Below the pieces are notes generated by a model. It had not been told where the DNA came from, ran no database searches, and saw only the letters and a program-made list of their open reading frames with translations. The position numbers and the translations under genes were made by a program. Positions 1 to 23,700 of a stretch of 37,866 bases of DNA are shown one piece after another. The first letter of the stretch is position 1. The number at the start of each line of letters is the position of its first letter. Location of the stretch: the IMG/VR virus record IMGVR_UViG_3300009104_000051, positions 1-37,866 of that record; one strand, 5' to 3'. This stretch comes from a virus.

Positions 1-1
1 A

Positions 2-58
2 CGATGGGTCAAGAAGAATGAGATTGTTCCCAAAGAAGAATCTTCTAAGGAATCATAA
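2..58 (+). CDS. 3' end of an unidentified upstream gene (partial)
   Basis: An open frame enters from the left edge and ends at TAA 56-58. Its last 18 residues are charged and Lys/Glu/Ser-rich, a soluble tail. The TAA shares its final A with the ATG of the next gene, the tight junction seen throughout this region, which supports a real coding end. Nothing visible identifies the protein. Confidence 0.55.
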   Translation, partial: RWVKKNEIVPKEESSKES

Positions 59-276
59 TGTTAGACGGAACTAATCATTCAGTATTTCGTAAGTTACCCA
101 CAAAGTATTGGAGTACGGATCATGGAAGTGGAGACTACTACGACCGAGATTATCCAGAATGGAAGTATTCATGTGAGGCTGGAGAATATACTACTGACAG
201 CCTAATCAAATTAGTCTATGCAATTTTTATGCATAGGTTTTGTCATTTATTACAAGGCGAGGGGTTTAGAGATTGA
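58..276 (+). CDS. small hypothetical protein (72 aa)
   Basis: I do not recognise this protein. The N-terminal two thirds is polar and rich in Tyr, Asp and Gly. Residues about 50-64 form a short hydrophobic helix (LIKLVYAIF and onward) that is amphipathic rather than a clear membrane span. A good Shine-Dalgarno (AAGGA, 47-51) sits seven bases before the ATG. The start overlaps the preceding stop by one base, and its own TGA overlaps a TTG start for the next tiny gene. Function unknown; the call as a gene rests on the ribosome binding site and the packing of neighbours. Confidence 0.6.
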   Translation: MLDGTNHSVFRKLPTKYWSTDHGSGDYYDRDYPEWKYSCEAGEYTTDSLIKLVYAIFMHRFCHLLQGEGFRD

Positions 277-371
277 GTACAGCAGATTACATCGCAGCAG
301 TCGTTCTGGGTATCGTATACATCGGTGTCTGGTGGCTATCCGTATCGGTGATTATAGGGAAATGGTTTTAG
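273..371 (+). CDS. tiny predicted single-pass membrane protein (32 aa, TTG start)
   Basis: Reading from TTG 273 gives 32 residues with a short polar N-terminus (STADY) and then one long hydrophobic segment at residues about 7-29 containing VVLGIVYIGVWWL. It ends in a basic IIGKWF tail. The TTG overlaps the previous stop as TTGA, parallel to the ATGA junctions used downstream, and a purine-rich GAGGGG lies about ten bases upstream. The last base of its TAG stop is also the first base of the tRNA-Asp gene. A small phage membrane peptide is the best reading. The TTG start and short length keep confidence moderate. Confidence 0.5.
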   Translation: MSTADYIAAVVLGIVYIGVWWLSVSVIIGKWF

Positions 372-447
372 GAGTGTTAGTTCAGTTGGTTAGAATACTT
401 GCCTGTCACGCAAGGGGTCGTGGGTTCGAGTCCCATACACTCCGCCA
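371..447 (+). tRNA. tRNA-Asp (anticodon GTC), CCA encoded
   Basis: A full cloverleaf can be drawn. The acceptor stem is GGAGTGT (371-377) with ACACTCC (437-443). The anticodon stem is CTTGC (398-402) with GCAAG (410-414), around a seven-base loop with GTC at 405-407. The T-stem is GTGGG with CCCAT (one G-U pair) around TTCGAGT. The discriminator is G444, the usual identity base for tRNA-Asp, and CCA is encoded at 445-447. Phage tRNAs of this kind supplement host decoding. No intron or broken pair is visible. Confidence 0.96.
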
Positions 448-486
448 CCCTACCCCCCAAAACTGGGCACAACGAGATTAACATTC

Positions 487-642
487 ATGGGTATACAGGA
501 AGACAAGTTACGTTTTCAGAACAAACGTCTGAAGGATCAGGAAAAGAGCTTGACAGAACAACAGCAACAAATTCGGAAACAGGAGAAGGAAATTGAAGAA
601 TGGATTCGACAACAACAAGACCCTTCTCATAATCAGGAGTAA
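487..642 (+). CDS. small Gln/Glu/Lys-rich coiled-coil protein (51 aa)
   Basis: From ATG 487 the frame gives 51 residues, almost all predicted helix, with heptad-like spacing of Leu, Phe and Ile through a very Gln-, Lys- and Glu-rich stretch (LTEQQQQIRKQEKEIEEWI). It ends in a polar tail. There is no hydrophobic segment, so it is probably cytoplasmic or virion-internal and may self-associate. The ribosome binding site is weak (GAG near 474). The AGGAG serving the next gene lies inside its last codons, suggesting coupled translation. Function unknown. Confidence 0.6.
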   Translation: MGIQEDKLRFQNKRLKDQEKSLTEQQQQIRKQEKEIEEWIRQQQDPSHNQE

Positions 643-648
643 TACAAT

Positions 649-861
649 ATGCAAGTACTAAAATTTTTAAAATGGCTATTCAATGTGAGTCAATGGGATA
701 ACTTTACGAAACGTGTCAGCGTATACATGATCATTGGTATAGGTGGATTGTTCTTTATGGAGAACAGTGTACTCTTTATGCTGATTGCGACATTGATTGA
801 TTTAGTATGCCAGTTGATAAAAAACAAGTGGGAAGAATTTGAAAAGGAGTTTAACCTATGA
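649..861 (+). CDS. small predicted membrane protein (70 aa)
   Basis: A basic, aromatic N-terminal helix (residues 1-22) is followed by hydrophobic residues about 24-58 (VYMIIGIGGLFF, then SVLFMLIATLIDLVC), enough for one long or two short membrane spans. A charged Lys/Glu tail follows. AGGAG at 635-639 is well placed for ATG 649. Its TGA overlaps the next start as ATGA. Size and topology are compatible with a holin-like or membrane accessory role, but no sequence motif supports a specific function. Confidence 0.65.
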   Translation: MQVLKFLKWLFNVSQWDNFTKRVSVYMIIGIGGLFFMENSVLFMLIATLIDLVCQLIKNKWEEFEKEFNL

Positions 862-1025
862 ACATACGTCCGAAGACTGAACAGGAAAGGATTGTAGAGA
901 TTCTCATGAAACTATCAGAGGAAGATCGAAAAGAACTCTTGGGATACATGGGTGAGGAAAAGGATTTTCTTTTTCTTATGAAAGAATATGATCCCTATTG
1001 GCCCACACAGGGTTGTGAAGCATGA
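858..1025 (+). CDS. small hypothetical protein (55 aa)
   Basis: A 55-residue acidic, helical protein without membrane segments. Charged residues alternate with Ile, Leu and Met (residues about 8-41), and it ends in a Pro/Tyr/Trp-containing tail. Its ATG overlaps the previous TGA, and its own TGA overlaps the next ATG; both junctions are four-base ATGA overlaps, typical of translational coupling. GGAG at 845-850 can serve as ribosome binding site. No family recognised. Confidence 0.6.
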   Translation: MNIRPKTEQERIVEILMKLSEEDRKELLGYMGEEKDFLFLMKEYDPYWPTQGCEA

Positions 1026-1351
1026 TACCAAAGTTTACTACTTTGAATGATTTCTTTTCGGGTTCTTTTACGCTCAGCAACGTGCAGAGTGTAAACACCA
1101 AAAACCTGATGGAGAAGAAACCTAAGTACTTACTGATAATGGATCTGGATGATAAAGATGCTGAAGCGAGGGCGGCTAGAGAAAAATGCGTTTACCTTCA
1201 GAGTGAAATTGACGTTCTACGAAAGTGGGGTTTCAGCCGCGAAATACCCTCTGAGTTGGAAAAGAAATTATCTGAGGCTAGATCCGAATGGTTAATTATA
1301 AAGGAAGAAGTAAAACAACTGGAACTGGAGGTCGAGAATTATGAAGACTGA
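1022..1351 (+). CDS. hypothetical coiled-coil protein (109 aa)
   Basis: The first 40 residues are Ser/Thr/Phe-rich. From about residue 43 the chain is an acidic/basic amphipathic helix (DLDDKDAEARAAREK, then SELEKKLSEARSEW, then EEVKQLELEVE), broken by a GFSREIP turn, so a two-helix coiled-coil hairpin is likely. It starts in an ATGA overlap with the preceding gene. The next gene's strong GGAGGT ribosome binding site and ATG lie inside its 3' end (11-base overlap). No catalytic motif is visible and the function is unknown. Confidence 0.65.
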   Translation: MIPKFTTLNDFFSGSFTLSNVQSVNTKNLMEKKPKYLLIMDLDDKDAEARAAREKCVYLQSEIDVLRKWGFSREIPSELEKKLSEARSEWLIIKEEVKQLELEVENYED

Positions 1352-1589
1352 TGAACTACCCGAAGAACTGGAAGAACTGAAACTGCGATTACAATTGGAA
1401 CTGGACGGAGTGTTGAACGGTGGAACAAACTACTCTTTTCAACCCAGTCTGATCGGAACCATTATAAAAGAATGGTATGCAGAATACGCAGACGATTACG
1501 AAAAGGCAATCATGAGTGTGGACTCTCATGCACCGTCCATCAATGTCAAGACTGACCCGACATTCTGGGCACTACAAAACATTTCATGA
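1341..1589 (+). CDS. small hypothetical acidic protein (82 aa)
   Basis: The N-terminal helix (residues 4-25, LPEELEELKLRLQLELDGV) is amphipathic and acidic. A second helical part contains WYAEYADDYEKAI, and the C-terminus is a polar tail with DPTFWAL. GGAGGT at 1327-1332 is one of the strongest ribosome binding sites in the window, eight bases before the ATG. The TGA overlaps the next ATG as ATGA. No family is recognised and there is no membrane segment. Confidence 0.65.
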   Translation: MKTDELPEELEELKLRLQLELDGVLNGGTNYSFQPSLIGTIIKEWYAEYADDYEKAIMSVDSHAPSINVKTDPTFWALQNIS

Positions 1590-1693
1590 GAAGGTATCTT
1601 CGCAAGTATCTGGATCTAATTCATTTCGTATTGATCGTATACTTGTTAAGCTCTCTCTTTTTTATATTACTATATTGGTTATCAAAATTATGA
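1586..1693 (+). CDS. tiny predicted membrane protein (35 aa)
   Basis: The frame opens with a strongly basic N-terminus (MRRYLRKY) and continues with an almost uninterrupted hydrophobic span, residues about 11-33 (LIHFVLIVYLLSSLFFILLYW). By the positive-inside rule the N-terminus should face the cytoplasm. Start and stop are both four-base ATGA overlaps with its neighbours. A longer frame starting at 1516 overlaps it in another register but is an artefact of extending the next gene upstream. Function unknown; small lysis-associated or membrane-remodelling peptides are a possible analogy only. Confidence 0.6.
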   Translation: MRRYLRKYLDLIHFVLIVYLLSSLFFILLYWLSKL

Positions 1694-1899
1694 AAGTATA
1701 TCCATCAGAAGCGACACCCCCTAAAAACTGGGCGACATTCAAAAAGAAACCCCTGTCTTTTATTAAATCAATTATTTTGGGATTGTGGTTCATCGTTGGG
1801 TTTTCGATCATTACCATCGCGTTGCTGATTGCGATTGCTTTGGTAGGTATATCATTATTTGAATTGACTACGGTATTGTTTTATGAGTGGACACACTAG
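1690..1899 (+). CDS. small predicted membrane protein (69 aa) with PPKNWA motif
   Basis: The polar N-terminus carries TPPKNWATFKKKP (residues 9-21). It is followed by a very long hydrophobic stretch, residues about 24-60, containing IIALLIAIALVGI-like runs, probably two membrane passes. I chose ATG 1690 because it forms an ATGA overlap with the preceding membrane peptide. The in-frame ATG at 1516 would bury two other genes. A short NWA-containing fragment with similar DNA occurs just after the tRNA at 452-469. Function unknown. Confidence 0.6.
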   Translation: MKVYPSEATPPKNWATFKKKPLSFIKSIILGLWFIVGFSIITIALLIAIALVGISLFELTTVLFYEWTH

Positions 1900-2458
1900 A
1901 GAGTGGGATCGATTTAACGAAAAATCTCCGATACGAAAAGAAACACTGACATCAAATATGGAAGTGTTGAACGCACATCTGATCAACGACATTGAGGATG
2001 CTGGTCAGGGTGCGTTGTCGGCTGCAAAGTGTTTTCGTACTCACTGGAAGATGCACGAACAGTATGAGTCGTTTCGATTACTGAACAATGCGGTATTGGA
2101 CATGGCAAAACAGTTACCCCTTGCAAGTCGTACTGACGAGAAAGGTAATCCCGAAGAAGTACCTTTAAAGGTATTGGAGTCTTGGGGATTGGTTTATCGT
2201 AAGGGAGAATCCACCGATGCACATACTCACTGGCCCGCGTTGTGGTCTTACTGTTATTGTGTGAGTGCGTGTGAGGATTGTGTACCTATAACCTTTCCTC
2301 ACATGGATACCTATTGGGGAGGACTCAATGACAATGAGGTATCGCATAAGACAGGGCAAATACTTTTATGGCCTGCATGGATTACCCATCAGGTTTATGA
2401 ACATGAATGTGACCATGATCGTATTGTGGTTGCTGGAAATATCTATACGGACTTTTAA
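1883..2458 (+). CDS. 2-oxoglutarate/Fe(II)-dependent oxygenase (copy 1)
   Basis: This 191-residue protein matches the small phage 2OG-Fe(II) oxygenase pattern (2OG-FeII_Oxy_5-like). It has an HTHW motif (His114 and His116), the core strand WSYCYCV, a late GQILLWPAWITH (His169) and Arg180 in DRIVVAGN, which should bind 2-oxoglutarate. Such enzymes couple decarboxylation of 2-oxoglutarate to hydroxylation of a target; the substrate here is unknown. Where classic enzymes have HxD, both copies here have HxH, as I recall for this subfamily. It overlaps the preceding membrane gene by 17 bases, and a second homologue lies 77 bases downstream. Related genes are common in marine T4-like phages. Confidence 0.8.
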   Translation: MSGHTREWDRFNEKSPIRKETLTSNMEVLNAHLINDIEDAGQGALSAAKCFRTHWKMHEQYESFRLLNNAVLDMAKQLPLASRTDEKGNPEEVPLKVLESWGLVYRKGESTDAHTHWPALWSYCYCVSACEDCVPITFPHMDTYWGGLNDNEVSHKTGQILLWPAWITHQVYEHECDHDRIVVAGNIYTDF

Positions 2459-2459
2459 T

Positions 2460-2543
2460 ATGTTTACTGGAGATCCCATACTATATAATATGTTAGGTTT
2501 CATTGTCGGAGCCATTATTGTGATATACTATATTCATGAGTAA
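2460..2543 (+). CDS. tiny predicted membrane peptide (27 aa) between the two oxygenases
   Basis: From ATG 2460 the frame gives 27 residues. A short N-terminus (FTGDPILYN) is followed by one hydrophobic segment, residues about 11-25 (MLGFIVGAIIVIYYI), and an HE tail. It starts one base after the first oxygenase's stop. It ends inside the start of the second oxygenase in an eight-base ATGAGTAA overlap, so it exactly fills the gap. GGA near 2448 is a weak ribosome binding site. It is too short to be certain; the fit to the gap and the hydrophobicity are the support. Confidence 0.45.
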   Translation: MFTGDPILYNMLGFIVGAIIVIYYIHE

Positions 2544-3177
2544 AAGAAAATGTACAGTCGAATCGATTGACTATGATGTTGACTTTCCTATGACGGTATC
2601 TGCAACGGTACGATGTCCGATTGAATTGAGGAAATTGAATCTCAATGCACAAACTCGTTCCTCTTTGATTGAACTTATACTCGAACATGGTGATGAACAG
2701 AATCACTCTTCTAACGTCAAAGCAGACATGACTGATTGGTTTATGCACACTAGGTATAAAGAGTTTAAAGAACTTTCAATCTTTACAGAAGCACTTTCAA
2801 AAAAAATATCCAAAGATAATATTGACGTAATGACTTTTGATTGCTGGGGTGCAGTCTATCGTAAGGGTGAGGAAACAATCAAACATACTCATTGGGGAAA
2901 CCTATGGAGTTGGTGTTACTACCTAAAAGTTCCATCTGATTCACCGCCATTTCGATTTGAAGATATTGGTGAAGGTAAGACAGCCTCTTTTGATATCTAT
3001 CCACAAGAAGATGACCTTTTAATGTTTCCCTCTTGGATATCACACTCTGTTCCTGTGTCACAATCTGACGAGGAACGAATCATGGTTGCTGGTAATATCC
3101 AACTTAATAATAAACCCAAATCACAAGACATAGATTACGATTCAATCATGCAGACTATGGTGGAGAAATATATCTGA
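2536..3177 (+). CDS. 2-oxoglutarate/Fe(II)-dependent oxygenase (copy 2)
   Basis: A 213-residue paralogue of the oxygenase just upstream, with the same motif series: CWGAVYRKGEE, HTHW (His117, His119), WSWCYYL, DDLLMFPSWISH (His170) and ERIMVAGNI (Arg181). The N-terminal about 95 residues differ from copy 1 and may set substrate choice. A charged tail of about 20 residues follows the core. The start overlaps the preceding peptide and has no good ribosome binding site, so translation is probably coupled. It is the last gene before the late promoter of the structural region. Substrate unknown. Confidence 0.8.
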   Translation: MSKRKCTVESIDYDVDFPMTVSATVRCPIELRKLNLNAQTRSSLIELILEHGDEQNHSSNVKADMTDWFMHTRYKEFKELSIFTEALSKKISKDNIDVMTFDCWGAVYRKGEETIKHTHWGNLWSWCYYLKVPSDSPPFRFEDIGEGKTASFDIYPQEDDLLMFPSWISHSVPVSQSDEERIMVAGNIQLNNKPKSQDIDYDSIMQTMVEKYI

Positions 3178-3180
3178 CCT

Positions 3181-3208
3181 TTCCTTATAAATATAGTATT
3201 ATAAGGAG
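3181..3208 (+). promoter_or_regulatory. RBS-sequestering hairpin overlapping the late promoter
   Basis: TTCCTTATAA (3181-3190) can pair with TTATAAGGAG (3199-3208): nine Watson-Crick pairs plus one U-G, around an eight-base loop. The 3' arm contains the whole Shine-Dalgarno AAGGAG (3203-3208) of the gp5-like gene, and the 5' arm and loop contain the late promoter. Read-through RNA from upstream would fold and hide the ribosome binding site, while RNA started at the late promoter would lack the 5' arm. This matches the logic known for T4 genes e and soc; here it is inferred from sequence. Confidence 0.65.
3186..3193 (+). promoter_or_regulatory. T4-type late promoter (TATAAATA) upstream of the gp5-like gene
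   Basis: An exact copy of the T4 late promoter -10 box lies in the 36-base gap before the hub gene, 20 bases from its ATG. By T4 rules (gp55 sigma, gp33, gp45 clamp) transcription should start about 6-7 bases downstream, near 3199-3200. Exact copies also precede gp25, gp8 and the first gene of the fibre array. Confidence 0.85.
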
Positions 3209-3213
3209 CCCGC

Positions 3214-4746
3214 ATGGCAGAAGAACAATATTTTATGGGACTAGATGGTTTCATCTGGTTCGTTGGTGTCGTAGAGAATCGTAATGACCCTGCTGAACTT
3301 GGTCGAGTCCAAGTTCGTTGTCTAGGATATCATACCGAAGATTTAACTTCCATACCTACCGCAGACTTGCCGTGGGCCCATGTCATGCATCCTGTTACCG
3401 ATCCTGCTGTACAGGGTTTGGGTAACACCCCCTCTTTTCTGGTTGAAGGTACTTGGGTAATCGGTTTCTTTCGTGACGCAAGAGAGAAACAACAGCCCGT
3501 AGTCATGGGTACATTACCTGGCTACCCACAAACAGAACCCAACACCGCAAAGGGATTTAATGATCCCACAGGAACTTACCCCAATAAGAATCGTGAATTT
3601 TCTGGACACTCACTGGACGAGAGTGATGTGAGTCGATTAGCAAGAGGAAAAGAATCCGAGAATCATGATGCACTTAAACTACGAAGGGCGATGCGACAAA
3701 CGGATGTTCCAATTGCAGTCGCACCTTACAATTCACTTACAGACAACACACAAGAAGAACCCCCAGAGGATTCCAGAGGTTTCTTTAGTGAACCCCATCC
3801 GAAAGGTATAGAGTCTGATGCAAATCCCTATACGTCCTCTGCGTATCCTTACAATCATGTACATGAAAGTGAATCAGGTCATATCCATGAAATAGATGAC
3901 TCGCCTGGCAGTGAGCGATTACTGCGTCAACATTCTGCTGGTACGTTTGAGGAAATTCATCCAGACGGAAGTAGAGTTGTCAAGGTTGTCTTTGATGATT
4001 ATAAATTTGTAGCTGGAGAATCTAACGCATACATTGAGGGCGGTGTGAATCTGACTGTCAATGGAGATGTCAATCATCTTGTAAAGGGTAATTATAACCT
4101 AGAGGTTGAAAAAGATTTTTCAGTAAAGGTTGGTCGCAATCAAAGAGTCAAGGTTGGTGGTCTTGGTGCTGGAAACTTATATGAAGAAGTTGTCGGAAAC
4201 AGATCAGTCAATATCCATAGAACACTCAAACAAGTGATTGGGGTAGACTCTGATACAATTATCGGTGGAGATGAATCAAGACAACATGGGGGCAAGTTCA
4301 AAGTGTCTGCGTTGCGAGGAGTCAATATAGACTCTGGACTTAAATCAATAATCTTGACTGCTGAAAGAGAGATTGCACTTGAAACTGGTTCATTTGGTTC
4401 AATAGATATTAAAGCAGGAACAACCGCAAGTATGGCTGGTGTTGCAGCAACTCAATTAGGTGGACTTGCGATTGCTGTAGGAGATATTACTACTACCACT
4501 ATTAGTCTATCATCTAATTTATCTGTTGGTCTTACCTCGCCTACCTTTAATATCGGTGTCTCTGCAATTACTGCTGCACAAGCAGTTCTTGCTTCCGATA
4601 TTAGAGCTGCAATTCCCTGTGTAATAAATCATACTGGAGTCAACAATACTGTTGGTGCAGTTAATGTGGTGGGCCCACTATCGTCATCTATTTCTGTAGC
4701 AGCACCAGCTGGTTTATTTATTTTTCACACAGGAGCACCACATTGA
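3214..4746 (+). CDS. 5: baseplate hub protein, gp5-like, without a lysozyme domain
   Basis: The N-terminal part (residues about 8-110) is an OB fold of the gp5/VgrG type: VGVVENRNDPAELGRVQVR, DLPWAHVMHP, EGTWVIGFF and QQPVVMGTLPGYP. After a hydrophilic linker comes SGHIHEIDD, the GTFEEIHPDGS segment and a series of short repeats (VNLTVNGDVNHLVKGNYNLEV) expected to form the trimeric beta-helix needle. T4 gp5 is 575 residues with a lysozyme domain between these parts; I see no such domain in these 510 residues. AAGGAG sits six bases before the ATG. It should form the central tail needle that pierces the outer membrane. Confidence 0.88.
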   Translation: MAEEQYFMGLDGFIWFVGVVENRNDPAELGRVQVRCLGYHTEDLTSIPTADLPWAHVMHPVTDPAVQGLGNTPSFLVEGTWVIGFFRDAREKQQPVVMGTLPGYPQTEPNTAKGFNDPTGTYPNKNREFSGHSLDESDVSRLARGKESENHDALKLRRAMRQTDVPIAVAPYNSLTDNTQEEPPEDSRGFFSEPHPKGIESDANPYTSSAYPYNHVHESESGHIHEIDDSPGSERLLRQHSAGTFEEIHPDGSRVVKVVFDDYKFVAGESNAYIEGGVNLTVNGDVNHLVKGNYNLEVEKDFSVKVGRNQRVKVGGLGAGNLYEEVVGNRSVNIHRTLKQVIGVDSDTIIGGDESRQHGGKFKVSALRGVNIDSGLKSIILTAEREIALETGSFGSIDIKAGTTASMAGVAATQLGGLAIAVGDITTTTISLSSNLSVGLTSPTFNIGVSAITAAQAVLASDIRAAIPCVINHTGVNNTVGAVNVVGPLSSSISVAAPAGLFIFHTGAPH

Positions 4747-9722: not shown

Positions 9723-12700
9723 ATGTCTAACGAGGAAAAGTCAAAACTTCAGACGAAGTTATCACCTTTAATAGAAGGTCAGGTTCCTGATTTTGTTCGG
9801 GACGATCATCCTTTATTTGTCGAGTTTTTAAAACAATACTATAAGTTTTTAGAAGCTGGTAAATTAACCATCACACCATTTACTGATTATTCTAGGACAG
9901 TAAATTATATTCGTCAAGAGACAAACACAGAACAATTTATTTTATTAGAGGATTCAATACTCGCTGATGCAAATAAAATTGTAACGGAGTCTGGTCTTGG
10001 ATTCGATGATGGTTCTGTAGGTAAATTTACAAATGGTGAAACAATCACTGGAGATACATCAGGAGCAACTGCGACCATTCTTGTTGAGGATTCTGAGAAC
10101 TCAATTCTTTATATATCCTCTCAACAAAAATTTATTACGGAAGAAACTATAACTGGTGGAACTTCTGGTGCTAGAGCAACCATAGGTGAGTATCGTGCGA
10201 ATCCAGTTCAAAACATTCAACAGTTATTGGACTATGCAGATGTTGATAATACCATTTATGATTTTCTTGATCAGATGCGAGATTCTTTTATGGAATCAAT
10301 ACCATCTACTCTTGCAACCAATACTTCAAAAAGAAATCTTCTAAAAAATATTAAAGACCTTTATTCTGCAAAGGGAACATCAGAGGGTCATAAACTTTTC
10401 ATGCGATTACTCTTGGGAGAAGATGCAGAAATAATTTATCCCAACGAATATATGATGAGGCCATCTGGTGGTGATTGGAAGTCTAGTCAGATTCTTAGAG
10501 CAACTGCACTTTCTGGTGCGAATGGTAATGAGGTTACTAATAATAAAATTACAGGTCAAACCTCTGGTGCGACTGCTGTTGTTATCAGTGCATTGACTAT
10601 CACTCAAGGAACATCTTCCTTGACTGAGTTTGAGATATCAGATGTGGTCGGAACATTTACTGATGGTGAAACTATAAAAGGTCTTTCAAACGATTCTGAT
10701 GTAGAGGTTTCTTTTACAGTCTCATCCATACTTGCTTCTGCAACCATAACAAATGATGGTGTTCTATACCATGTGAATGAATCAACGGTTGTAGAATCTT
10801 TAGGAAATGGTTTTGCAGCTGCTCAAATAACTGCGGTTAAAAGAGGTGGTGTATCAGATATAATTGTTGATGATGCTGGAACAGGATATGAAGTTGGTGA
10901 TCCATTAGTTTTTACCAATCCATCAGCTGATACTGATGTAGAATCTCCAGAGGGTTATGTTAGTGTTGTTGGTGGTGGTGTCTTACAAGAAACAGGAACA
11001 CTTGATGATTCGGATGTAACAACAGACACGATTATTTTAGAGGAAACTTCAACTGAGTCTATTGTCTTCCCTCAAATTATATTAGAGGGTGGAGCAGAAA
11101 GAGATGTATTTAGTGGTAATGGACTGACAAGAACTTTTAATATTAACAATACATCTACTCTAACTGATACTCTTACCTTGTTTATTGACGGTGTGAAAAT
11201 CGAACAGACAGACAAGGCTGGTGACGCATACTGGAGTGTAGAGGACACTCCCTATCTGGTGTTAAATGGAACAGACAGTTCATCAACCGATGCAGGCGAC
11301 AATATTTTATTAGAGGTTGACGATGCACCGCAAACTGGTTCGGTTATTACATTAGAACAACAAACAATAACATTCTCAGAACTTCCAATAGATCGAACTC
11401 CAAAGATAGGAGTAAACATAGAAGTTCGTGGAGACAACGTAAATCATCTTTTACTTGATGGCACTACCAGACGTTCTTTTATTATATTAGACGGAACAGA
11501 TAATAGCGGAGGTGCGTTTGGTAATACGAGAAGTAACTTTGAAGAGAATCTTATTTTAAACCAAACTGATTCTAGTGGGTCAGATGAAGGCGACAATATT
11601 TTATTAGAAGATAGTGGTGATACTGATTTTGATAATGCTGGTGATTTTATTTTGTCTAATGGAGGTGAGGTATTACCCGATAAGTTTACTACATCATCCG
11701 ATTTAATTGTTCTAGAGCATGGTTCTTTCAGTTCATCTGAAGCAAACTCAATAAGGAAGGCTTATGTAAGTAATAGTGGAACAGGATATACGGATCTCCC
11801 AACTGTTACCGTAACTTCAACATCTGGTAGTAGTGCTAAACTACTTGCATCCACAAGTGATATTGGTGCGATTGATGAGGTATCTATAACCGATGCTGGA
11901 TTAAGTCTTTCATCATCTAATCCTCCAGACATTGTTCCAAGAGCCCACTTTATAGTTAAGGATGTTACAGGAACATTTGTTGCTGGTAATACTTTAACCA
12001 CACATGAGGGAACAGTCAAGGGTTGGGATTCATCAACCAATGTATTGGATTTAGAGTTTGAAAATGTTGTACGAATAGATGGAGAACAACAGAGTGGTTC
12101 TGTCAATCAAGGTATTGCGTTTGAAGAAGGGACAAGAGATCTTAATACACATCAAAGTGGTATTGTCCATATAATTTTAGAGGACGCAATAGATGTAGCG
12201 GATACTTCAACGGACTCTATTATTCTTGATGCTACTGCGATAACTGAGTCTACACTGTTTGATGTAAATTCATATAAAACACGATTAAAAGTTAAGGTGG
12301 TTGAAAATACCTTACAAACAATTTCAGTTTCAACTGAGGATGCTGCTTTAGGGACAAAAATATTTTCTATTGATGGATCTTATAATGAAAAGGATTTCAC
12401 TGCCGAACTACTACAATTAGAGAGGGGTAGAGTTTATTATTTTGATTTATCAGATACTTCATTATATAATGTAGACAGCACCAAAAATCATGAACTAGTG
12501 TTTGCAGAGTTGTCTAATAGATTGAAAGGTGATGGTTCTACAACAACATTTACACTTAAAAATTCTGTTATAGAAAAACCAGTTGCATTTGTAACTCAAA
12601 ACAGCACATCATTTCCAGCAAATGTAAGAAGTCATTTTGATAATGTGACAGCATCTACTGGATACACAACAAGTGGTAACACAATTACATTTACGACAGC

Positions 12701-15700
12701 TCCAAGTTCGGGAAATCATGTTTTAATCTTTACAAAATATACAACTGGTGTAACGACCTCAGAGGATTATATTGAAATTGGTGGAGGAATTTATGATGAC
12801 ACAACTGAAGCTGGTCGTGCGTTCATTCAATTAGAGTTAGACTCTGAAGCACCAGACCTATACTATTACTGTGTTAATCATGGCCCAAGAATGGGTGGTA
12901 GAATAAGTTCATTAACAAAGGCTGATCTTATTGTTGGCGAGGGTTCTAAAGTTACACTCGATGGTGAAAGTATTGGCCCAAGTCCTCAAGGTATTTTATT
13001 AGAGAACGGTTCTCAAGACGTTGCTATTACTTACTCGTTACTTTTAGAGGCTGAGAGTGGAAGTATACTTCTTAATGGAACTGATTCTAATGGTTTGAAT
13101 AATGGGGATAATATTATTCTTAATGAACCAACTAATCGTTCTGATCCCTTTAGTATTGTATTTGAAGATTCCTTTATACGAAGTGCAGAGGAATTATCAA
13201 ATAAAATTTTAATAGATTTAAATGCAGAAGATAGAAGTAATCATGGAACTGCAATAGCACTTGAATCTGGAGAGGGTGATTCATTAATTCTTGAAGATCA
13301 ATTTCTTAATGATTCTATCAGTAAAATTATAATGAATACCTCTTTATCGGACTATGATAGTACTTTAGATAATCTCGTAAAATTAGGAAAAGCAACCAAG
13401 AAGTCTGATGGTACTTTAGATTTTAGTGTTAAACTAGTTTTAGAAAATGGTAAAGAACCAATAGTATTAAACGGAACGGACGCATCTGGAGCTAATGCTG
13501 ATGATTCAATATTATTTGAGGATGCAATCAATCAAGAGGACAGAGATTTTCATACTGATAACGCTATCGCACACCTTTTGGTTAATGAAGAATTTAGTTT
13601 TATCAATGATACAGAAGATGCTGGAGGAACCAGTGTTCTAATGACGGAAGAGACAGACAAAACAAATAATATTTTTAATATTATTTTGAATGGAACAGAT
13701 GATTCTTCGTCAAATGCTGGAGATAATATATTAACAGAAATAGAAGGAGATGAGCTACGACAAGAAGAATTTTATTCTCTTGGTATGAGAGTTCCCACTT
13801 CTAAATTTGAACTTGAAGCTTTTGAATTAGAACCTATCCAACATGAAAATGAAAATATATTACTGGAATCAAATAGAACAAGTGATACGGAAATATTTTA
13901 TGTTCTTTTGGATGGAACGGACAGTTCATCAACCAATGCAGGCAGTAAACTAATATCTGAAGCTTCTTCATTCTCACATGATTTTGCAACCATTGAACCC
14001 AGAATTATTTTAGATGGAACTGACTCCGATGGAAGTGATAGTAGAGGTGGATTATTATTTGAGAATGAAGACGTTAGTTTTGAAGAAATTGTTTTAAATG
14101 GTTCTGATAGTTCTTCAACGGATGCTGGAGATAATTTAGTATTAGAAACTGGAATAGATTTTAGTAATGGTAATGTTACTATTACGGACTCAGGGGGTGC
14201 ATCTGCAACCATTGTTAAAGCAGACATCGCAACAGTTACCAGCGCAGTCAACACATCTTCTACCTCTGTAACTGGATACTCTGGCATAAGAAGTTTGATG
14301 GGTGAAGATTTAAACCGTATTCAAGATTCGTATTATTATCAGGATTATTCTTATGAGGTTCAAGTCGGTCAATCGTTATCAACTTATATTAATGAATTAA
14401 AGAAAGCGGTTCATCCCACAGGGTTCTTACCTTTTGGTAAGGTATCAATTGCATCTTCAATATCTGCAGCAATATCTACAACAGCTGCTGGTATTTCTGA
14501 TTATACAGGTGACACTGATACATTCTCACCAGAACTCGCATCCGTTCTTCAAACACTGTTTAGTCAAACTGTACAAAGTAGATTACAAGTTACACCTACA
14601 ACGTATGGTATAGGACAAAGTGATGATCAAATTGTATTAGAGAATGGTATAGCAGCTGGTGATAATCTTGTTCTTGATGCGAGTGCAGCATCAACTGATG
14701 AGGGTTCAAATATTTTATTAGAATTTAGAACCTCTGATCTTGATACCATAATGTTAGAAACAGACGAACAAGTTCTTTTAGAAACAGGTAGTTTCATTAT
14801 ACTAGAGGAATTTAGTGATGTTGGAATAGACCTTGAGGACGGAGCACTTGAAGCAATTCTTTATGAATCAGGTAGAGTAAGTTCAGAGACAACTAATTAT
14901 GCCTATGATGGTGGTGGACGAGTTATGGCAGAATCGTCAAATGCTCCAAGTGCAGACGCAGACCGATTTCTAGTCAGAGAAATTACTACTAAGATTTCTA
15001 CTGCACCAACTTCAAGAGCCTCCAGAAACCTTTTATTGCATCTTGCAAAATATCCTTTTGGTACTGTCGATTCGATTCAGTTGGAAACTTCAACCGCAAA
15101 CCAGACATCGTTCCTTGCTCTTGACGGTGAGATACCACTCGCACAGGAAACAACCTTTATTATTCTGGAGTCTGGTGAGAATGTATTTTTAGAACAGCCT
15201 AGTGATGAGGGTCAACGTATAGTTGCAGAGATGGACACATGGGCATTTCCAATTGGATTTAAGGTAAGTGAAAATGAAAGGATTGTATTGGAATATGAAA
15301 ATGAATTTGTAGAAACCATACCGTTATCAGAGATAGGTGATTTCAGATTTGAAGATATTCTTGCGATAGATAAAATTATAATGGATGAAAATCCTGTTGA
15401 CCAAGATAATGCAAACGCAGTTGAGAACACTGGTATTCTCATGGAGAACTTTGGACAGATTCTTCTCAATGGAACAGATAGTTCATCAACCAATGCTGAA
15501 AGTTTTCTTGCACAGGAGACAACCAAGAACAATAGGTTTACATTAGAGGAATCTGGTTTACTTATTGTTGAAGAAAACTCTACTCACTCCATTATAGATA
15601 ATCTTATATCAGAAAGTGCTCTTGAAGAAACTATAGTGCTAGAAGATTTTTTCAATTCAAGAAATACTTTTGGTATCAGGTTGGAACAAGATTCATATAA

Positions 15701-16178
15701 TGAAGATGTGATTATATTAGATGGTACTGACTCTAGTTCTTTTGATGCGGGCGTTAAGTTAGAACTGGAAGAGTATTTTCAATCGGGACAAGAGACTAGA
15801 CCGGCTAGAATACTCCTAGAAGATTTTGAGCACCTGATGATGGAAACTGGTGATTTTGTAGGAATGGAAAATGAAACTGTAACTGTTTTTACAGGAGACT
15901 TTAAGACATCTGCAATTCAACTAGAAACCACAAATATAATATCAAGTAAAGGTCAAATACCTCTGGGTAATTGGACACTAAATAGTTCAACGAGTCCAGT
16001 TGGATATCAACCAGTGGTTCACGCATCAGAGATTAAAGTTCGATCTACTGGTGAAATTGCGTTGGAGGACTCAACGGATACAACTCATGGGTTTTTGGTA
16101 TTGAATGGAACAGATAGCTCATCAACAAATGCGGGCGATAACATAGATTGCGAAGGTGCAACAGGAATTACTGCATAA
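9723..16178 (+). CDS. giant baseplate protein in gp7 position, repeat-rich (2151 aa)
   Basis: It lies between gp6 and gp8, where T4 has gp7 (1032 residues), so it is probably the wedge-scaffold counterpart, about twice as long. Residues 1-260 look conserved and globular (VPDFVRDDHPLFVEFLKQYY, then SKRNLLKNIKDLYSAKGTSE, FMRLLLGEDAEIIYP). GETITGDTSGA-type repeats follow at about 100-300. Residues 510-2140 hold at least 13 GTDSSSTDAG units and many shorter ILLE-type units. Embedded are a cupredoxin-like domain (His923, Cys1050, His1053, Met1057) and a conserved segment near 1540-1600 (YINELKKAVHPTGFLPFGKV). It starts three bases after the gp6 stop. Confidence 0.8.
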   Translation: MSNEEKSKLQTKLSPLIEGQVPDFVRDDHPLFVEFLKQYYKFLEAGKLTITPFTDYSRTVNYIRQETNTEQFILLEDSILADANKIVTESGLGFDDGSVGKFTNGETITGDTSGATATILVEDSENSILYISSQQKFITEETITGGTSGARATIGEYRANPVQNIQQLLDYADVDNTIYDFLDQMRDSFMESIPSTLATNTSKRNLLKNIKDLYSAKGTSEGHKLFMRLLLGEDAEIIYPNEYMMRPSGGDWKSSQILRATALSGANGNEVTNNKITGQTSGATAVVISALTITQGTSSLTEFEISDVVGTFTDGETIKGLSNDSDVEVSFTVSSILASATITNDGVLYHVNESTVVESLGNGFAAAQITAVKRGGVSDIIVDDAGTGYEVGDPLVFTNPSADTDVESPEGYVSVVGGGVLQETGTLDDSDVTTDTIILEETSTESIVFPQIILEGGAERDVFSGNGLTRTFNINNTSTLTDTLTLFIDGVKIEQTDKAGDAYWSVEDTPYLVLNGTDSSSTDAGDNILLEVDDAPQTGSVITLEQQTITFSELPIDRTPKIGVNIEVRGDNVNHLLLDGTTRRSFIILDGTDNSGGAFGNTRSNFEENLILNQTDSSGSDEGDNILLEDSGDTDFDNAGDFILSNGGEVLPDKFTTSSDLIVLEHGSFSSSEANSIRKAYVSNSGTGYTDLPTVTVTSTSGSSAKLLASTSDIGAIDEVSITDAGLSLSSSNPPDIVPRAHFIVKDVTGTFVAGNTLTTHEGTVKGWDSSTNVLDLEFENVVRIDGEQQSGSVNQGIAFEEGTRDLNTHQSGIVHIILEDAIDVADTSTDSIILDATAITESTLFDVNSYKTRLKVKVVENTLQTISVSTEDAALGTKIFSIDGSYNEKDFTAELLQLERGRVYYFDLSDTSLYNVDSTKNHELVFAELSNRLKGDGSTTTFTLKNSVIEKPVAFVTQNSTSFPANVRSHFDNVTASTGYTTSGNTITFTTAPSSGNHVLIFTKYTTGVTTSEDYIEIGGGIYDDTTEAGRAFIQLELDSEAPDLYYYCVNHGPRMGGRISSLTKADLIVGEGSKVTLDGESIGPSPQGILLENGSQDVAITYSLLLEAESGSILLNGTDSNGLNNGDNIILNEPTNRSDPFSIVFEDSFIRSAEELSNKILIDLNAEDRSNHGTAIALESGEGDSLILEDQFLNDSISKIIMNTSLSDYDSTLDNLVKLGKATKKSDGTLDFSVKLVLENGKEPIVLNGTDASGANADDSILFEDAINQEDRDFHTDNAIAHLLVNEEFSFINDTEDAGGTSVLMTEETDKTNNIFNIILNGTDDSSSNAGDNILTEIEGDELRQEEFYSLGMRVPTSKFELEAFELEPIQHENENILLESNRTSDTEIFYVLLDGTDSSSTNAGSKLISEASSFSHDFATIEPRIILDGTDSDGSDSRGGLLFENEDVSFEEIVLNGSDSSSTDAGDNLVLETGIDFSNGNVTITDSGGASATIVKADIATVTSAVNTSSTSVTGYSGIRSLMGEDLNRIQDSYYYQDYSYEVQVGQSLSTYINELKKAVHPTGFLPFGKVSIASSISAAISTTAAGISDYTGDTDTFSPELASVLQTLFSQTVQSRLQVTPTTYGIGQSDDQIVLENGIAAGDNLVLDASAASTDEGSNILLEFRTSDLDTIMLETDEQVLLETGSFIILEEFSDVGIDLEDGALEAILYESGRVSSETTNYAYDGGGRVMAESSNAPSADADRFLVREITTKISTAPTSRASRNLLLHLAKYPFGTVDSIQLETSTANQTSFLALDGEIPLAQETTFIILESGENVFLEQPSDEGQRIVAEMDTWAFPIGFKVSENERIVLEYENEFVETIPLSEIGDFRFEDILAIDKIIMDENPVDQDNANAVENTGILMENFGQILLNGTDSSSTNAESFLAQETTKNNRFTLEESGLLIVEENSTHSIIDNLISESALEETIVLEDFFNSRNTFGIRLEQDSYNEDVIILDGTDSSSFDAGVKLELEEYFQSGQETRPARILLEDFEHLMMETGDFVGMENETVTVFTGDFKTSAIQLETTNIISSKGQIPLGNWTLNSSTSPVGYQPVVHASEIKVRSTGEIALEDSTDTTHGFLVLNGTDSSSTNAGDNIDCEGATGITA
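10024..10187 (+). repeat. GETIxGxTSGAxAxI repeats in the gp7-position protein
   Basis: Two copies of a 16-20 residue unit are visible: NGETITGDTSGATATI and EETITGGTSGARATI, with a shorter copy (NKITGQTSGATAVV) near 10542-10586. The unit recurs in the gp8-like (near 17332) and DUF4815-type genes (near 18004, 19270, 20299 and 20410). Confidence 0.8.
11262..11610 (+). repeat. GTDSSSTDAG repeats, cluster 2 (gp7-position protein)
   Basis: Units start at 11262 (LNGTDSSSTDAGDNILLE, the best consensus copy), 11487 (LDGTDNSGGAFGN) and 11556 (LNQTDSSGSDEGDNILLE). The DNA for GDNILLE is almost identical in the first and third copies although the two lie about 250 bases apart. Confidence 0.88.
13071..14147 (+). 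repeat. GTDSSSTDAG repeats, cluster 3 (gp7-position protein)
   Basis: Units start at 13071 (LNGTDSNGLNNGDNIILNE), 13467 (LNGTDASGANADDSILFE), 13686 (LNGTDDSSSNAGDNILTE), 13908 (LDGTDSSSTNAGSKLISE), 14010 (LDGTDSDGSDSRGGLLFE) and 14094 (LNGSDSSSTDAGDNLVLE). Spacing is irregular, so they are not a simple tandem array. Confidence 0.88.
14673..16154 (+). repeat. GTDSSSTDAG repeats, cluster 4 (gp7-position protein)
   Basis: Units start at 14673 (LDASAASTDEGSNILLE, the variant also found at the N-termini of the adhesins), 15465 (LNGTDSSSTNAESFLAQE), 15717 (LDGTDSSSFDAGVKLELE) and 16101 (LNGTDSSSTNAGDNIDCE). The last lies at the extreme C-terminus of the protein. Confidence 0.85.
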
Positions 16179-17706: not shown

Positions 17707-20700
17707 ATGACACTTAAAACAAATTTAGATACAGCACCATACTATGATGATTTTGACCCTGATGATAATTTTCATCGTATTCTTTTTAGGCCAGGTTACG
17801 CAATACAGTCTAGAGAGTTAACACAACTTCAATCTATTCTTCAAAGACAAATCGAACTTCATGGAAAACACATTTTTAAAAATGGTGCGATAGTTGTGCC
17901 TGGTGAGGTAACAGTTGACAACAGATATTATGGGATAAGACTTAAGACAACTTTTAATGGGGAAACAATCGATCCCTCACAATATTATAATGATGATACA
18001 CCTGTTGTTATCACTGGTGATACTTCTGGGGTTGAGGCAGAGGTTGTCGGATACTCTGCAACTGGAGATCAAGCAGATGAACCAGTTCTTTATGTTACCA
18101 TTACCAAAACTGGAAAGACCGCTGATGGTGACAGAAAATCTCCTAATTCATCAGTTGATTTTATAGACGGTGAAAAAATTACTGCTAACGCAGAAATTAC
18201 ACACACCACAGAATACAAAAAATTTGAATTTAGTGCTGAGGTTTTTCAACCAACTGGATTTGGAAGTGCAACCTCAGTAGGTACTGCGGTTAGTGTTAGT
18301 GCTGGAGTTTTTTACGCAAAAGGAACTTTTGTAGAAACAAAAAGACAGGATCTTATTGTATCATACAATGATCCATTTCCATCAAAATCTGTTGGGTTCA
18401 ACATTATTGAAGAAATAGTAACTCCAGAAGAGGATACTAGTTTATTAGACAATTCAACTGGAACAACTAATTTTGCAGCTAAAGGTGCCCATAGATTAAA
18501 AATAAGACTTGAACTAGCAGCAAAAGATTTTGATGATACAGATGTTGATAATTTTATTGAATTGGTGAAAATAGACAATGGAATAATTTTAGAACAGATA
18601 CAAGAAGACAAATACTCAATTATTGGCGATGCGATGGCGCAAAGAACATTTGAGGAATCTGGAAACTATCTTGTTAATCCTTTTAGAGTTGAGGTTGCAG
18701 AGGCAGTTGACAACGATGTACAAGGAGATATATTTTTAGGGGAATATGAGGGAAGAGAATTTACAGACGAATTTGTTAAAGCACAAGATGATTTTTTAAC
18801 TTTAAAAATACAGCCAGGTATAGGTTATATTCAAGGATATCGGGTAGAGAGTCTTGGTCTTGTAAGAAAGGATCTTTTAAAAGCAAGAAACACCAAAGAA
18901 CTTAATGGTGTTGGTACGAACCATGAAATAGGAAACTATCTTAGACTTACCAATGTGTATGGTTCACCTGATATTAGTGATGTCTCTGGTGAGACAACAG
19001 CATACAGACCGATATTATTGTGGGATAACAACCAATCATCCAGAGGAACAATTAGTGATGCTAATGCAGTTGGTGTTTTAAGACCTAGATCATTTGAACA
19101 TGAAGCTGACGGTTCTGCAACTGGTACTGCGACTGCTGGTTCATCCTCTACTAACGATGATGGTGTTTATCGATTATATGCATTTGATGTTCGTAATTTT
19201 GTACGACTTACAATGACTGATACTCCAAATAGAAGTCTAAGTTCTGCATATTTCGCAACTGGTGGTGTCCGAGTTACAGGAGTTACCTCTGGTGCAACAG
19301 GATTTGTTTTTAATGATACTACTAGTTTTCCAGGCACCACTTTTACATCAGGAGCAACCATTTACTTAACAAATGTAATTGGTGAATTTGATGAGGGTGA
19401 AAAAATTAAAGCATCTGAGGATACAAATGCAGATTTAATTATGCAAAACTCTAGTGGTACAGATTTAACAATAGTTTCTATTATAAACAGTAGACTTAGT
19501 GATGCAAGAGCTGTGCAGATGCAAGAGTCTGACTCAGGACAACAATTTACCGCAGACATTGTACTGGAAAATCTTGAGGGTAATAGTACTTCAGTATTTT
19601 TGGAAGAAAGTGATGATTCTGAAAATGCAACTGGTGGAACACAAGAAAAGAAACAGATTGGTAAGGATGATGAAGCAACTGGAATCGAGTTAGAAGTACT
19701 TAAAGGTGCGAAGTTAAGAGATCCACAACTTCAACAATCTCTCTTCAAATTACCTAAAGATGCTATTAAAACATTACTGACACCAAAAAATAATGGTGCA
19801 TCTGATACCGATTTAATTTTTAGAAGACAGTTTGTAGGAACAACCAGTGCTTCGGGTGCAGTATCTTTTTCAGCTGCTTCTGGAGAAATATTTGAAGCAC
19901 ACACAGAAAAAGATTATACCCTATCAGTCTTAACTGCTGGTAATGGTAGTGCATCTCAAGGAGATATTGTTAGTGTTGCGAGTACCATATCAGGAACAGG
20001 AACAAGCACAATAACAATAACAGACTCAACTAATCTTGGTGATTCTGCAAAGGTTAAAGTCATCGCAACGGTTAAAAAGACAGATGTTATTCAAGCAGTC
20101 AAGACTACAAACTTATCTAAACAATTAAAAGTTATCGCAAGTGATGCCGATGGAGCATTTGGAACTAGAGCAACGGATGATATTATATCATTAGGTAGAA
20201 CTGATGTTTACAGAATACAAGCTATATATGATTCAGAAGATACTTCAACGGATGCTGTTGCACCAACACTTACTGTAAGTGACATATCAGGGACTTTTGA
20301 ACGTGGAGAACAAATAAAAGGTGCGACCTCTGGTGCAAGAGGACGATTAATTACAACTTCAAGTCCACTGTCTTATACATTAACACTTGGAGATGGTGCT
20401 GACGATTTCGTGGTGGGAGAGACTATAAAGGGCACAGCATCAGGTGCGACTGCAACAATTGATACTGATGGTGTTACTGCTGGTAGTAAAATAGTAACAA
20501 ATGATTTTGTATTTGATGACGGACAACGAAATAACTATTATGATATTTCAAGATTGGAGAGGAAAAAAGATCGTAACGCACCAAAGGGAAGAATGTTAGT
20601 AATTTATGATTACCTATCTCATGGTGCTGGTAGTTTCTTTTCAGTGGATTCTTACAGTGCTGTTTCTGAACAAATGACTTACGATGATATTCCTATATTT

Positions 20701-23700
20701 GTTCCAACTGTTACTGACCCCGATGATCCAGCTCCAGCATCAGAGTTTCCTTTATCGGATTGTTTAGATTTTCGTCCAACAGTGGAAAATATTGCTGGAA
20801 CATCTGAAACAATAACAGATGTTGATCAGGTAACAGCAAATTCATTTGATTTTCGTTCTAGACAGTTTGACGGTACTGGTGCGGTTATTGTGGATACACC
20901 AAAACCAGATAGTCTTGTAACGACAGATATTGAATTTTATTTACCAAAGATAGCTTGTTTGTATTTAGATAAGAACGCAGATTTTATTCTAAGAGAGGGT
21001 GAACCTAATGAGAACTTAATACCACCTGCTCCAATATATGAAGCTATAAAAATTGCAGAATTTACATTGCCTGCATATACTTTTAGACCAACGGACGTTG
21101 GAATTTACTACGAGCCATATAAGCGATATCGAATGGAAGATATTGCTGCCTTAGAGGGTCGCATTGATTCTTTAGAATATTATACGTCCTTGACACTCTT
21201 AGAACAAGATGTGCGTTCATTAGAAGTACTTGACACAAATGGTCTTCCTAGATTTAAGTCTGGATTTGTAACGGACTCCTTTAACGGTCATGCAGTTGGA
21301 GATGTTAATCACATTGATTATGACTGTGCGATTGATAATATAGAAAGGGAACTTAGACCAAAAACAGTTGATAAAAGAGCTGGTCTAGAGGAATTTTTAA
21401 CTACCGATGCAGCAAGAGAAGCTGCAGGATATAACAGAAAAGCAAGTATAATTACTTTACCTTATGATGAAACTGTTGCCATTAATAATTCATCTCAGGG
21501 GCCTGTTCTTTGCACCTCTGCTGGTCTTGTTGCAACTGATTTTGAGGGGGAATTAACTTTAACTCCAGACACAGATAACTGGTTTGAAACAGAGATTTTA
21601 AGTGAAACTCCTGTTTATGATACTGCTAGTTTTGATAAAACTAAAAAACAGGTTGATAAACATAACGCAAATTCAAAGTATGGTGGATGGAATGATGTTG
21701 GATCAGCAGTGCCAACAAATATAGGGTATGGATATAGTGCTCCAGGCGCTGGTGGTGTTCAGAATTATACTGGACGAGGTGGTTCTAACGGACATATTAA
21801 TAGACACGATAGTAAAGGTAATCCAACTTCGGGTGATGTGTGGATATATGAGTTTAGATATACTCAAAAACAAAAAAGAACCAAAACACTTAAATCAATT
21901 AGTCATGATTGGACTTCCCCTGTAACAACAGATGTTCTTAGAAGCACATCGCAAATTAGATACATCCGTCCAATTAAAATTCAATTTGTTGCTGAAGGAT
22001 TAGCACCTTTCACAAAACATTATATTTATTTTGGTGGGAGAGATGTTGGTAAATTTACTACCCCAGATTCTCTTGAATTTACAAGTGCGAGCAGTGTTAA
22101 AAAAGGTGCTCCACTAGTAGCTAATGGTGATCAGGAATTGAAAGGATTTTTTCTTGTACCTGATACCAGAGGACAAAAAAATAAAGACAAACCAAAATTT
22201 GAAACTGGAGAAATTAATTTTAAAATAACGTCTAGTCCAGACAATGATGATAAATTAACTTTTTCTTTTGCAGAGCATAGTTTCTATTCAATGGGTCAAA
22301 GACACTCATACGACAGAACAATAACATCAACGAAAACTCCCATAGTAAAAACGTATCAAGGAGCTCCACTGTATAGAAACGTATACAATCACAAGTATAT
22401 GTGGGGTAATAGTCAAGTCCAGAAAAGATTTCCAGGCAGTGCGTGGGTTGATTGGGAAAGTGGTACATACACTGATGCAAGTGCTAAAGCTTGGGTTCAA
22501 CAACTAATAAATGACGGTGTTTTAAAATATAGAGATGGAATGGATAAATTAGAGATTCAGCCAGGATATCGTACCGCATCGCCGGGCGATTACGAAAGAA
22601 CTGCTGATGATACTCATAGTATTCCTAAAACTTATACATCTCCATTGATGCAATCTTTTGTCGTACAAGAAGAGGGTGGTATGTACATGACAGGGGTTAA
22701 TTTAGCAGTTTGTAAAGTGAAAGGTAAAAATGTTTTTACTGTAGTGGATCTTGTAAGTTGTGAAAACGGAGTTCCGACTAACACTCGTATCCCTTATGCT
22801 AGAGCAATCAAAAGATTGAATCCGTCTGATGCTCATGAGGGAGGATTAACGGATGTTAGTCAGTATACAAAATTTGACTTTCAAGCACCTGTATATTTAC
22901 AAGAAGGTGAAAAGTACGCTATAAGAATTACATCAAGGGCCCGTAGGGTAGAGTTTCAATATGGAGACACAACAAACGGTACTAACAAACATACATCTTT
23001 GGGAGCAATGTTTCCTGCTACCTCTATAACATCAGAAAGAAAAGAGGGGGTTGTCAATCATCATTTGATAATGCAAACACTTAAAGCAAGATTTAAAGCG
23101 GTAAGTGGAACGGTTACTTTACAAAACGAATCTGTAGGAGAAGAATATACTCAAGAGAATGGTGACACTGGATATGGTAAATTATTGATTAGTCCAAATC
23201 CAATAGAGATGACAAATAGTATTAAAAAAATAAAAGTTTATCATAGAGATCATGGTATGTATAATACATTAAATAATGTATTAATATCTGGTGTTACCTC
23301 TAGAGTTAGTACAACATTGGAAGGTAGTATATCGGATACCACAACAACTTTGGTTTTAGCATCGGATACAGGATTTACTTCTTCTTCAACCCATGTGGCT
23401 AGTGCTTCAACAGTTCGTTTAAAAATTGATAATGAACTATTTTCTGGAACTTTAAGTGGAAGAACATTTAGTGTATCTGGTAGAGGAAAGGTGGGGTACG
23501 GTGATATAAGTGGTGCGAGTGTTGCACATGGAGATGGTGCAACTGTTGAGCTGTATATGCTGTTTGGTGTTCCATTAAATGAAATTAATAAAGAACATAA
23601 TCGTATTGCAGATATAGAGATGAACTCTTATACAGTATCTTTAACAACTGCTCCAACAATTACAGGTAGCGTTCCAACAGTTCGCACAGGTGGAACTGAT

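Follow-up and report, generated by a model that had tools for sequence, protein, structure and literature searches.

A hairpin enclosing a late promoter as a probable late-only translation switch for the baseplate hub gene of marine T4-like phages

An uncultured marine T4 relative carries, just upstream of the gene for its gp5-like baseplate hub, a predicted hairpin that pairs the whole Shine-Dalgarno sequence (SD) of that gene and has a T4-type late promoter embedded in it. Dozens of divergent phages from the ocean have kept such a hairpin on their hub gene. From the sequences we judge it likely, with a probability of roughly 0.8, that this hairpin is a switch that confines translation of the hub to late RNA. 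RNA entering the hub gene from upstream would carry both arms of the hairpin, fold across positions 3181-3208 and hide the SD, and the hub would be poorly translated from such read-through RNA. Late RNA polymerase, recruited to the promoter TATAAATA within the hairpin, would start at 3199, so that the late RNA would open with a 3' arm that has no partner and, as computed, expose AAGGAG on a 15-nt leader. A switch of this kind would work without any protein. The mechanism is already known from T4; its target here, its breadth and its alternative forms are new.

A late promoter lies within a hairpin upstream of the hub gene

The window analyzed here is the whole of a virus record of 37,866 bases. 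The terminase of this T4-like phage shares 75% identity with its counterpart in Methylophilales phage Melnitz and 72% with the one in Pelagibacter phage HTVC008M. The same-strand genes located 5' of the hub are small ORFs, a tRNA-Asp and two 2OG-Fe(II) oxygenases (Table 1). No copy of TATAAATA is present throughout positions 1-3185. The four exact copies in the window (3186, 7326, 16183 and 26152) are all on the + strand and each lies just 5' of a gene start, three of them being 3' of the hub. An Rfam scan of the window returned only tRNA. The tail region also contains two very long ORFs at 9723-16178 (2151 aa) and 17707-24522 (2271 aa), the second of which matches phrog_358, a family of unknown function.

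Table 1. Features of the hub leader and its surroundings in the window
Feature	Position	Strand	Basis
5' arm TTCCTTATAA, predicted only in read-through RNA	3181-3190	+	Sequence, fold, kept in relatives
T4-type late promoter TATAAATA, -13 to -6, in 5' arm and loop	3186-3193	+	Motif search; numbering from PMC2988020
Loop ATATAGTA	3191-3198	+	Fold
Predicted late start (+1), first base of 3' arm	3199	+	T4 numbering
3' arm TTATAAGGAG, holds whole SD; unpaired in late RNA	3199-3208	+	Sequence, fold
SD AAGGAG, 5 nt before ATG at 3214	3203-3208	+	Sequence
gp5-like baseplate hub, 510 aa; Gp5_OB, weak Gp5_trimer_C, no lysozyme domain found	3214-4746	+	Pfam/PHROGs
2OG-Fe(II) oxygenase, directly upstream, possible source of read-through RNA	2536-3177	+	Domain match
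Second upstream 2OG-Fe(II) oxygenase	1883-2458	+	Domain match

The two arms form 10 bp, of which one (3181:3208) is a U-G pair, and the minimum free energy (MFE) fold consists of exactly the 10 pairs expected from reading the sequence. According to a first-pass annotation of this DNA, the stem takes in all of AAGGAG, and the late promoter is shared between the 5' arm and the loop. Both placements were borne out: six of the six SD bases are paired in the MFE fold, with a mean pairing probability of 0.86 in the read-through form, and TATAAATA runs from the last part of the 5' arm into the first part of the loop. In T4 late promoters the first T of the motif is numbered -13 (PMC2988020), which would place +1 of the hub transcript at 3199, matching the start near 3199-3200 that the annotation had proposed. 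Late RNA from this position would lack the entire 5' arm. Folding of both RNA forms, which the annotation had suggested, gave a paired SD in the long form and an unpaired SD, with no partner left, in RNA beginning at 3199.

The window hairpin by itself is weak evidence. Dinucleotide shuffles of 3170-3235 folded equally well in 11 of 200 cases, and shuffles in which the promoter, SD and ATG were fixed gave p of ∼0.05, which is barely beyond chance. The support for the hairpin comes from its relatives.

The hairpin is conserved and its arms covary

Viral and genome contigs supplied the hub-encoding loci. The analysis covered 80 distinct leaders of the hub gene that include a late promoter, 64 of which contain an SD. 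In the read-through form of these 64 leaders, the SD paired with bases upstream of +1 at a mean probability of 0.91, exceeding 0.5 in 61 of them, and the mean SD pairing fell to 0.26 in the late RNA. Shuffles that spared the promoter, SD and ATG gave a null mean of 0.48 (set-mean sd of 0.03). By the same measure, T4 e and I-TevII, used as a check of the method, score 0.83-1.00. The loci share ancestry, which leaves the tests partly dependent on one another; representatives separated on the hub tree were chosen to reduce this effect. In these 16 leaders, which are >0.8 substitutions apart, SD pairing was 0.91 compared with a null of 0.50 (sd of 0.07), and 5' and 3' parts paired more stably with their cognate partners than after permutation (-10.3 versus -7.6 kcal/mol, p = 5e-5). 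Loss of pairing in close relatives with an intact promoter, which the first-pass annotation had named as evidence against its reading, was not seen: a 97%-identical locus (L001) and L003-L007, with hubs 53-57% identical, all retain the pairing. Four of the genome contigs (L158-L161) carry phage hub genes but were binned to Thaumarchaeota, Flavobacteriaceae, Planctomycetota and Chloroflexi MAGs; they are probably misbinned phage contigs.

Compensatory change in related phages had been named beforehand as a test, and the arms were found to covary while the pairing was kept. When pairing was anchored on the SD, position -17 was represented by T-A, C-G and A-T pairs and position -18 by A-T, T-A and C-G pairs. 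In an alignment of 36 sequences (A2), 86.4% of cells were paired compared with 82.3% in shuffles, and the covariation score of 0.205, compared with 0.159 for shuffled data, was reached in 0 of 500 shuffles. Slid registers of this alignment were at most 60% paired, and covariation was below that of the true register in every one. These counts of compensation rest on the SD-anchored or a named structure; RNAalifold returned no consensus structure for the sequence-based MAFFT alignment of A2, probably as a result of MAFFT losing the SD register as loop length changes.

The clade of the cultured phage Melnitz was examined after the pattern was known. The gp5-OB gene of Melnitz follows a tRNA-Leu and is preceded by a stem, AATCCCTTGT/ACAAGGGATT, around its late promoter. 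Relatives have the stems CCCCTTTGC/GCAAAGGGG, with an apical loop of ATAAATA, and AATAATCCTCTT/AAGAGGATTATT, and these hairpins covary. Nine of 10 such leaders gave p = 0.005, and the tenth gave p = 0.055. In a Melnitz-related subclade (L196, L197, L201-L216 and L223), the promoter and SD are kept and pairing is not above chance. The device is not universal.

Pairing is specific to the hub, the usual first late gene

In 79 other late leaders of the same loci, SD pairing was 0.39 compared with a null of 0.32, with some single non-hub leaders scoring high; the three other late promoters of the window scored 0.15, 0.30 and 0.26. A device general to late genes was rejected, given that these other leaders lie near the null. 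The gene 5' of the hub varies among relatives, being an oxygenase, a small ORF ending in GRDPDLH or a tRNA, and the device therefore belongs with the hub rather than with the oxygenases. The GRDPDLH-ending ORF, of unknown family and with no Pfam match, lies directly 5' of the hub promoter at many loci of a large clade (e.g. L034:4745-4924). Control of lysis as the reason for the lock was rejected for the window, whose hub has no lysozyme domain in Pfam or PHROGs.

Late promoters occur at 0.056 per kb upstream and 0.197 per kb downstream of the hub, i.e. they are 3.5-fold rarer upstream, and 45 of the 51 loci with at least 1 kb of upstream sequence have none upstream of the hub. In most cases, then, a same-strand block devoid of late promoters ends at the hub, which is the first late gene. 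The hub would on this account be the late gene most exposed to read-through, which may explain why the lock sits on it, and the simplest account is of a lock that protects the first late gene where it adjoins a putatively earlier block.

Alternative arrangements of the hub leader

In several lineages (e.g. L100, L103, L137 and L139), the upstream arm lies in the 5 bases between the promoter and +1 and still pairs with the SD; folding of the leaders indicates that this arm would likewise be lost through late initiation. At 12 loci (L054:300-518 and 11 similar ones), an ORF of 50-63 aa ends 3 nt ahead of the hub, making the hub the second gene, and it is this small ORF that bears the late promoter, together with a similar but less significant hairpin. 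A run of T follows the hub hairpin in L100, L146 and L166:10319-10360, where a terminator and an SD lock could be combined.

The remaining 16 of the 80 distinct leaders (including L009:4364-4380, L130 and L112) fall in one part of the hub tree and have an SD in neither RNA form. With TATAAATA and the ATG separated by 5 or 6 nt, +1 would fall on the A of the ATG or one base earlier, and the late hub mRNA is predicted to be leaderless, or nearly so. At the 6-nt spacing, the promoter itself provides an in-frame TAA, which would make a gene start further upstream impossible. The leaderless arrangement and the SD type are at least two changes apart on the hub tree, and parsimony requires nine changes between arrangements overall. 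Two non-hub genes, at L010:1772 and in L089, also start 5 nt after TATAAATA.

In KVP40 and Aeh1, where the hub is an internal gene of a late operon, it overlaps the gene before it and lacks a leader, and two cyanophage hub leaders have no SD. In syn9 (L087:35912-35960), the sequence TATAAATAATCCTAGA...TTCTAGGAG is found 5' of gene 18, where an arm between the promoter and +1 could pair with the SD of the tail sheath gene.

Taken together, the arrangements raise the tentative idea, to which we give somewhat less than even odds, that selection in marine T4-like phages confines hub translation to late RNA as a rule, by means of different, interchangeable devices: an arm upstream of the promoter, an arm between the promoter and +1, a lock moved to the small ORF that opens the operon, or a leaderless late mRNA. 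Literature searches returned no report of a hairpin on the hub gene or gp5, or of leaderless late mRNA, in T4-like phages. Replacement of a hairpin by a leaderless late mRNA would, if true, be new for these phages as far as we could find.

Discussion

The simplest alternative to a translation switch is chance pairing. The SD holds most of the G in these AT-rich leaders, and TATAAATA beside an SD easily yields a hairpin, as the null mean of 0.48 and the marginal p value of the window itself attest. Yet the full set and the representatives both reach 0.91, the arms covary and other late genes stay near their null; chance is refuted as an explanation of the whole family by the set-wide SD pairing and the covariation, and we regard it as improbable overall. 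The CCT just 5' of TATAAATA might instead be an upstream element of the promoter, its match to the SD being incidental. CC is indeed found at -16/-15 in 54 of 64 SD-type hub promoters, but it is found in 0 of 16 hub promoters without a gene SD and in only 14 of 117 other late promoters, a distribution from which it follows that CC is not a general promoter element. Given also that several lineages have the arm on the other side of the promoter, this explanation seems very unlikely.

Two further readings assign the inverted repeat a different role. The hairpin could be an intrinsic terminator for upstream transcription, alone or besides an SD lock, and a T run does follow the stem in the Melnitz relatives and L100/L146. 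No T run follows the stem in the window, however, and no terminator-like site was found between the upstream oxygenase and the hub; the run is absent from most relatives too, leaving termination a slim prospect. Alternatively, a protein regulating the late promoter could bind the repeat as its DNA operator. The dyad does span the promoter, and a site of this sort over the late promoter of I-TevI is bound by I-TevI itself (PMC2988022), but the distance between the arms, their sequence and even the side of the promoter on which the arm lies vary among relatives, whereas pairing with the SD is kept. An operator is about as hard to credit as an incidental promoter element. The interpretation of the first-pass annotation, a hairpin that would keep the hub silent until late transcription, is supported.

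The late-only switch has clear precedents. In T4 e, 49 and I-TevI/II/III, read-through RNA folds into a hairpin that masks the ribosome-binding site, and the late promoter is encoded within or next to the 5' strand of this hairpin, a strand missing from late RNA (PMC3014915, PMC2988022). The T4 genes that use the device are late genes carried on long polycistronic transcripts (PMC2988022). The mechanism proposed for the hub is the same as that of e, 49 and I-TevI. Unlike those of e, 49 and I-TevI/II/III, the present target is a baseplate hub without a lysozyme domain, and the arms covary across dozens of divergent marine phages. The first-pass annotation had drawn its parallel with e and soc. 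The comparison with e fits; soc, a late gene in an early transcription unit, shares a hairpin with an embedded late promoter, but as we read its sequence, what the stem covers is the AUG, with the SD in the loop, and e, 49 and I-TevI/II are closer parallels. As cited in PMC3014915 and PMC2988022, a hairpin likewise sequesters the ribosome-binding site of mobE in the T4-related phage Aeh1, in that case on a homing endonuclease gene of a single phage.

These results extend a classic T4 switch, described for lysozyme, endonucleases and a few others, to uncultured ocean phages and, in them, to a conserved structural gene. The combination of hairpin and promoter also provides a sequence signature for the border between earlier and late genes, which is useful because satisfactory prediction of late promoters was not achieved in pelagimyophages (PMC7029224). 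It becomes testable why a phage would forbid early synthesis of its tail hub, i.e. what benefit the lock may bring, and whether a leaderless late mRNA can replace the hairpin; cultured Melnitz and its host make both questions approachable.

A comparable arrangement is predicted in T4 itself. Gene 53, the first gene of the 53-5 hub operon, contains TCTCCTTATAAATA...AGGAGG, and its SD is predicted to pair with the upstream flank of the promoter (score of 0.96). No report of this hairpin was found in the literature examined. It differs from the hub hairpin in that the divergent late promoter and SD of gene 4 overlap it, and the dyad may be a by-product of that overlap. In the region of genes 4 and 53 (L165:32330-32385), the divergent late promoters overlap and the SDs are complementary to each other's upstream flank, with scores of 0.96 and 0.99.
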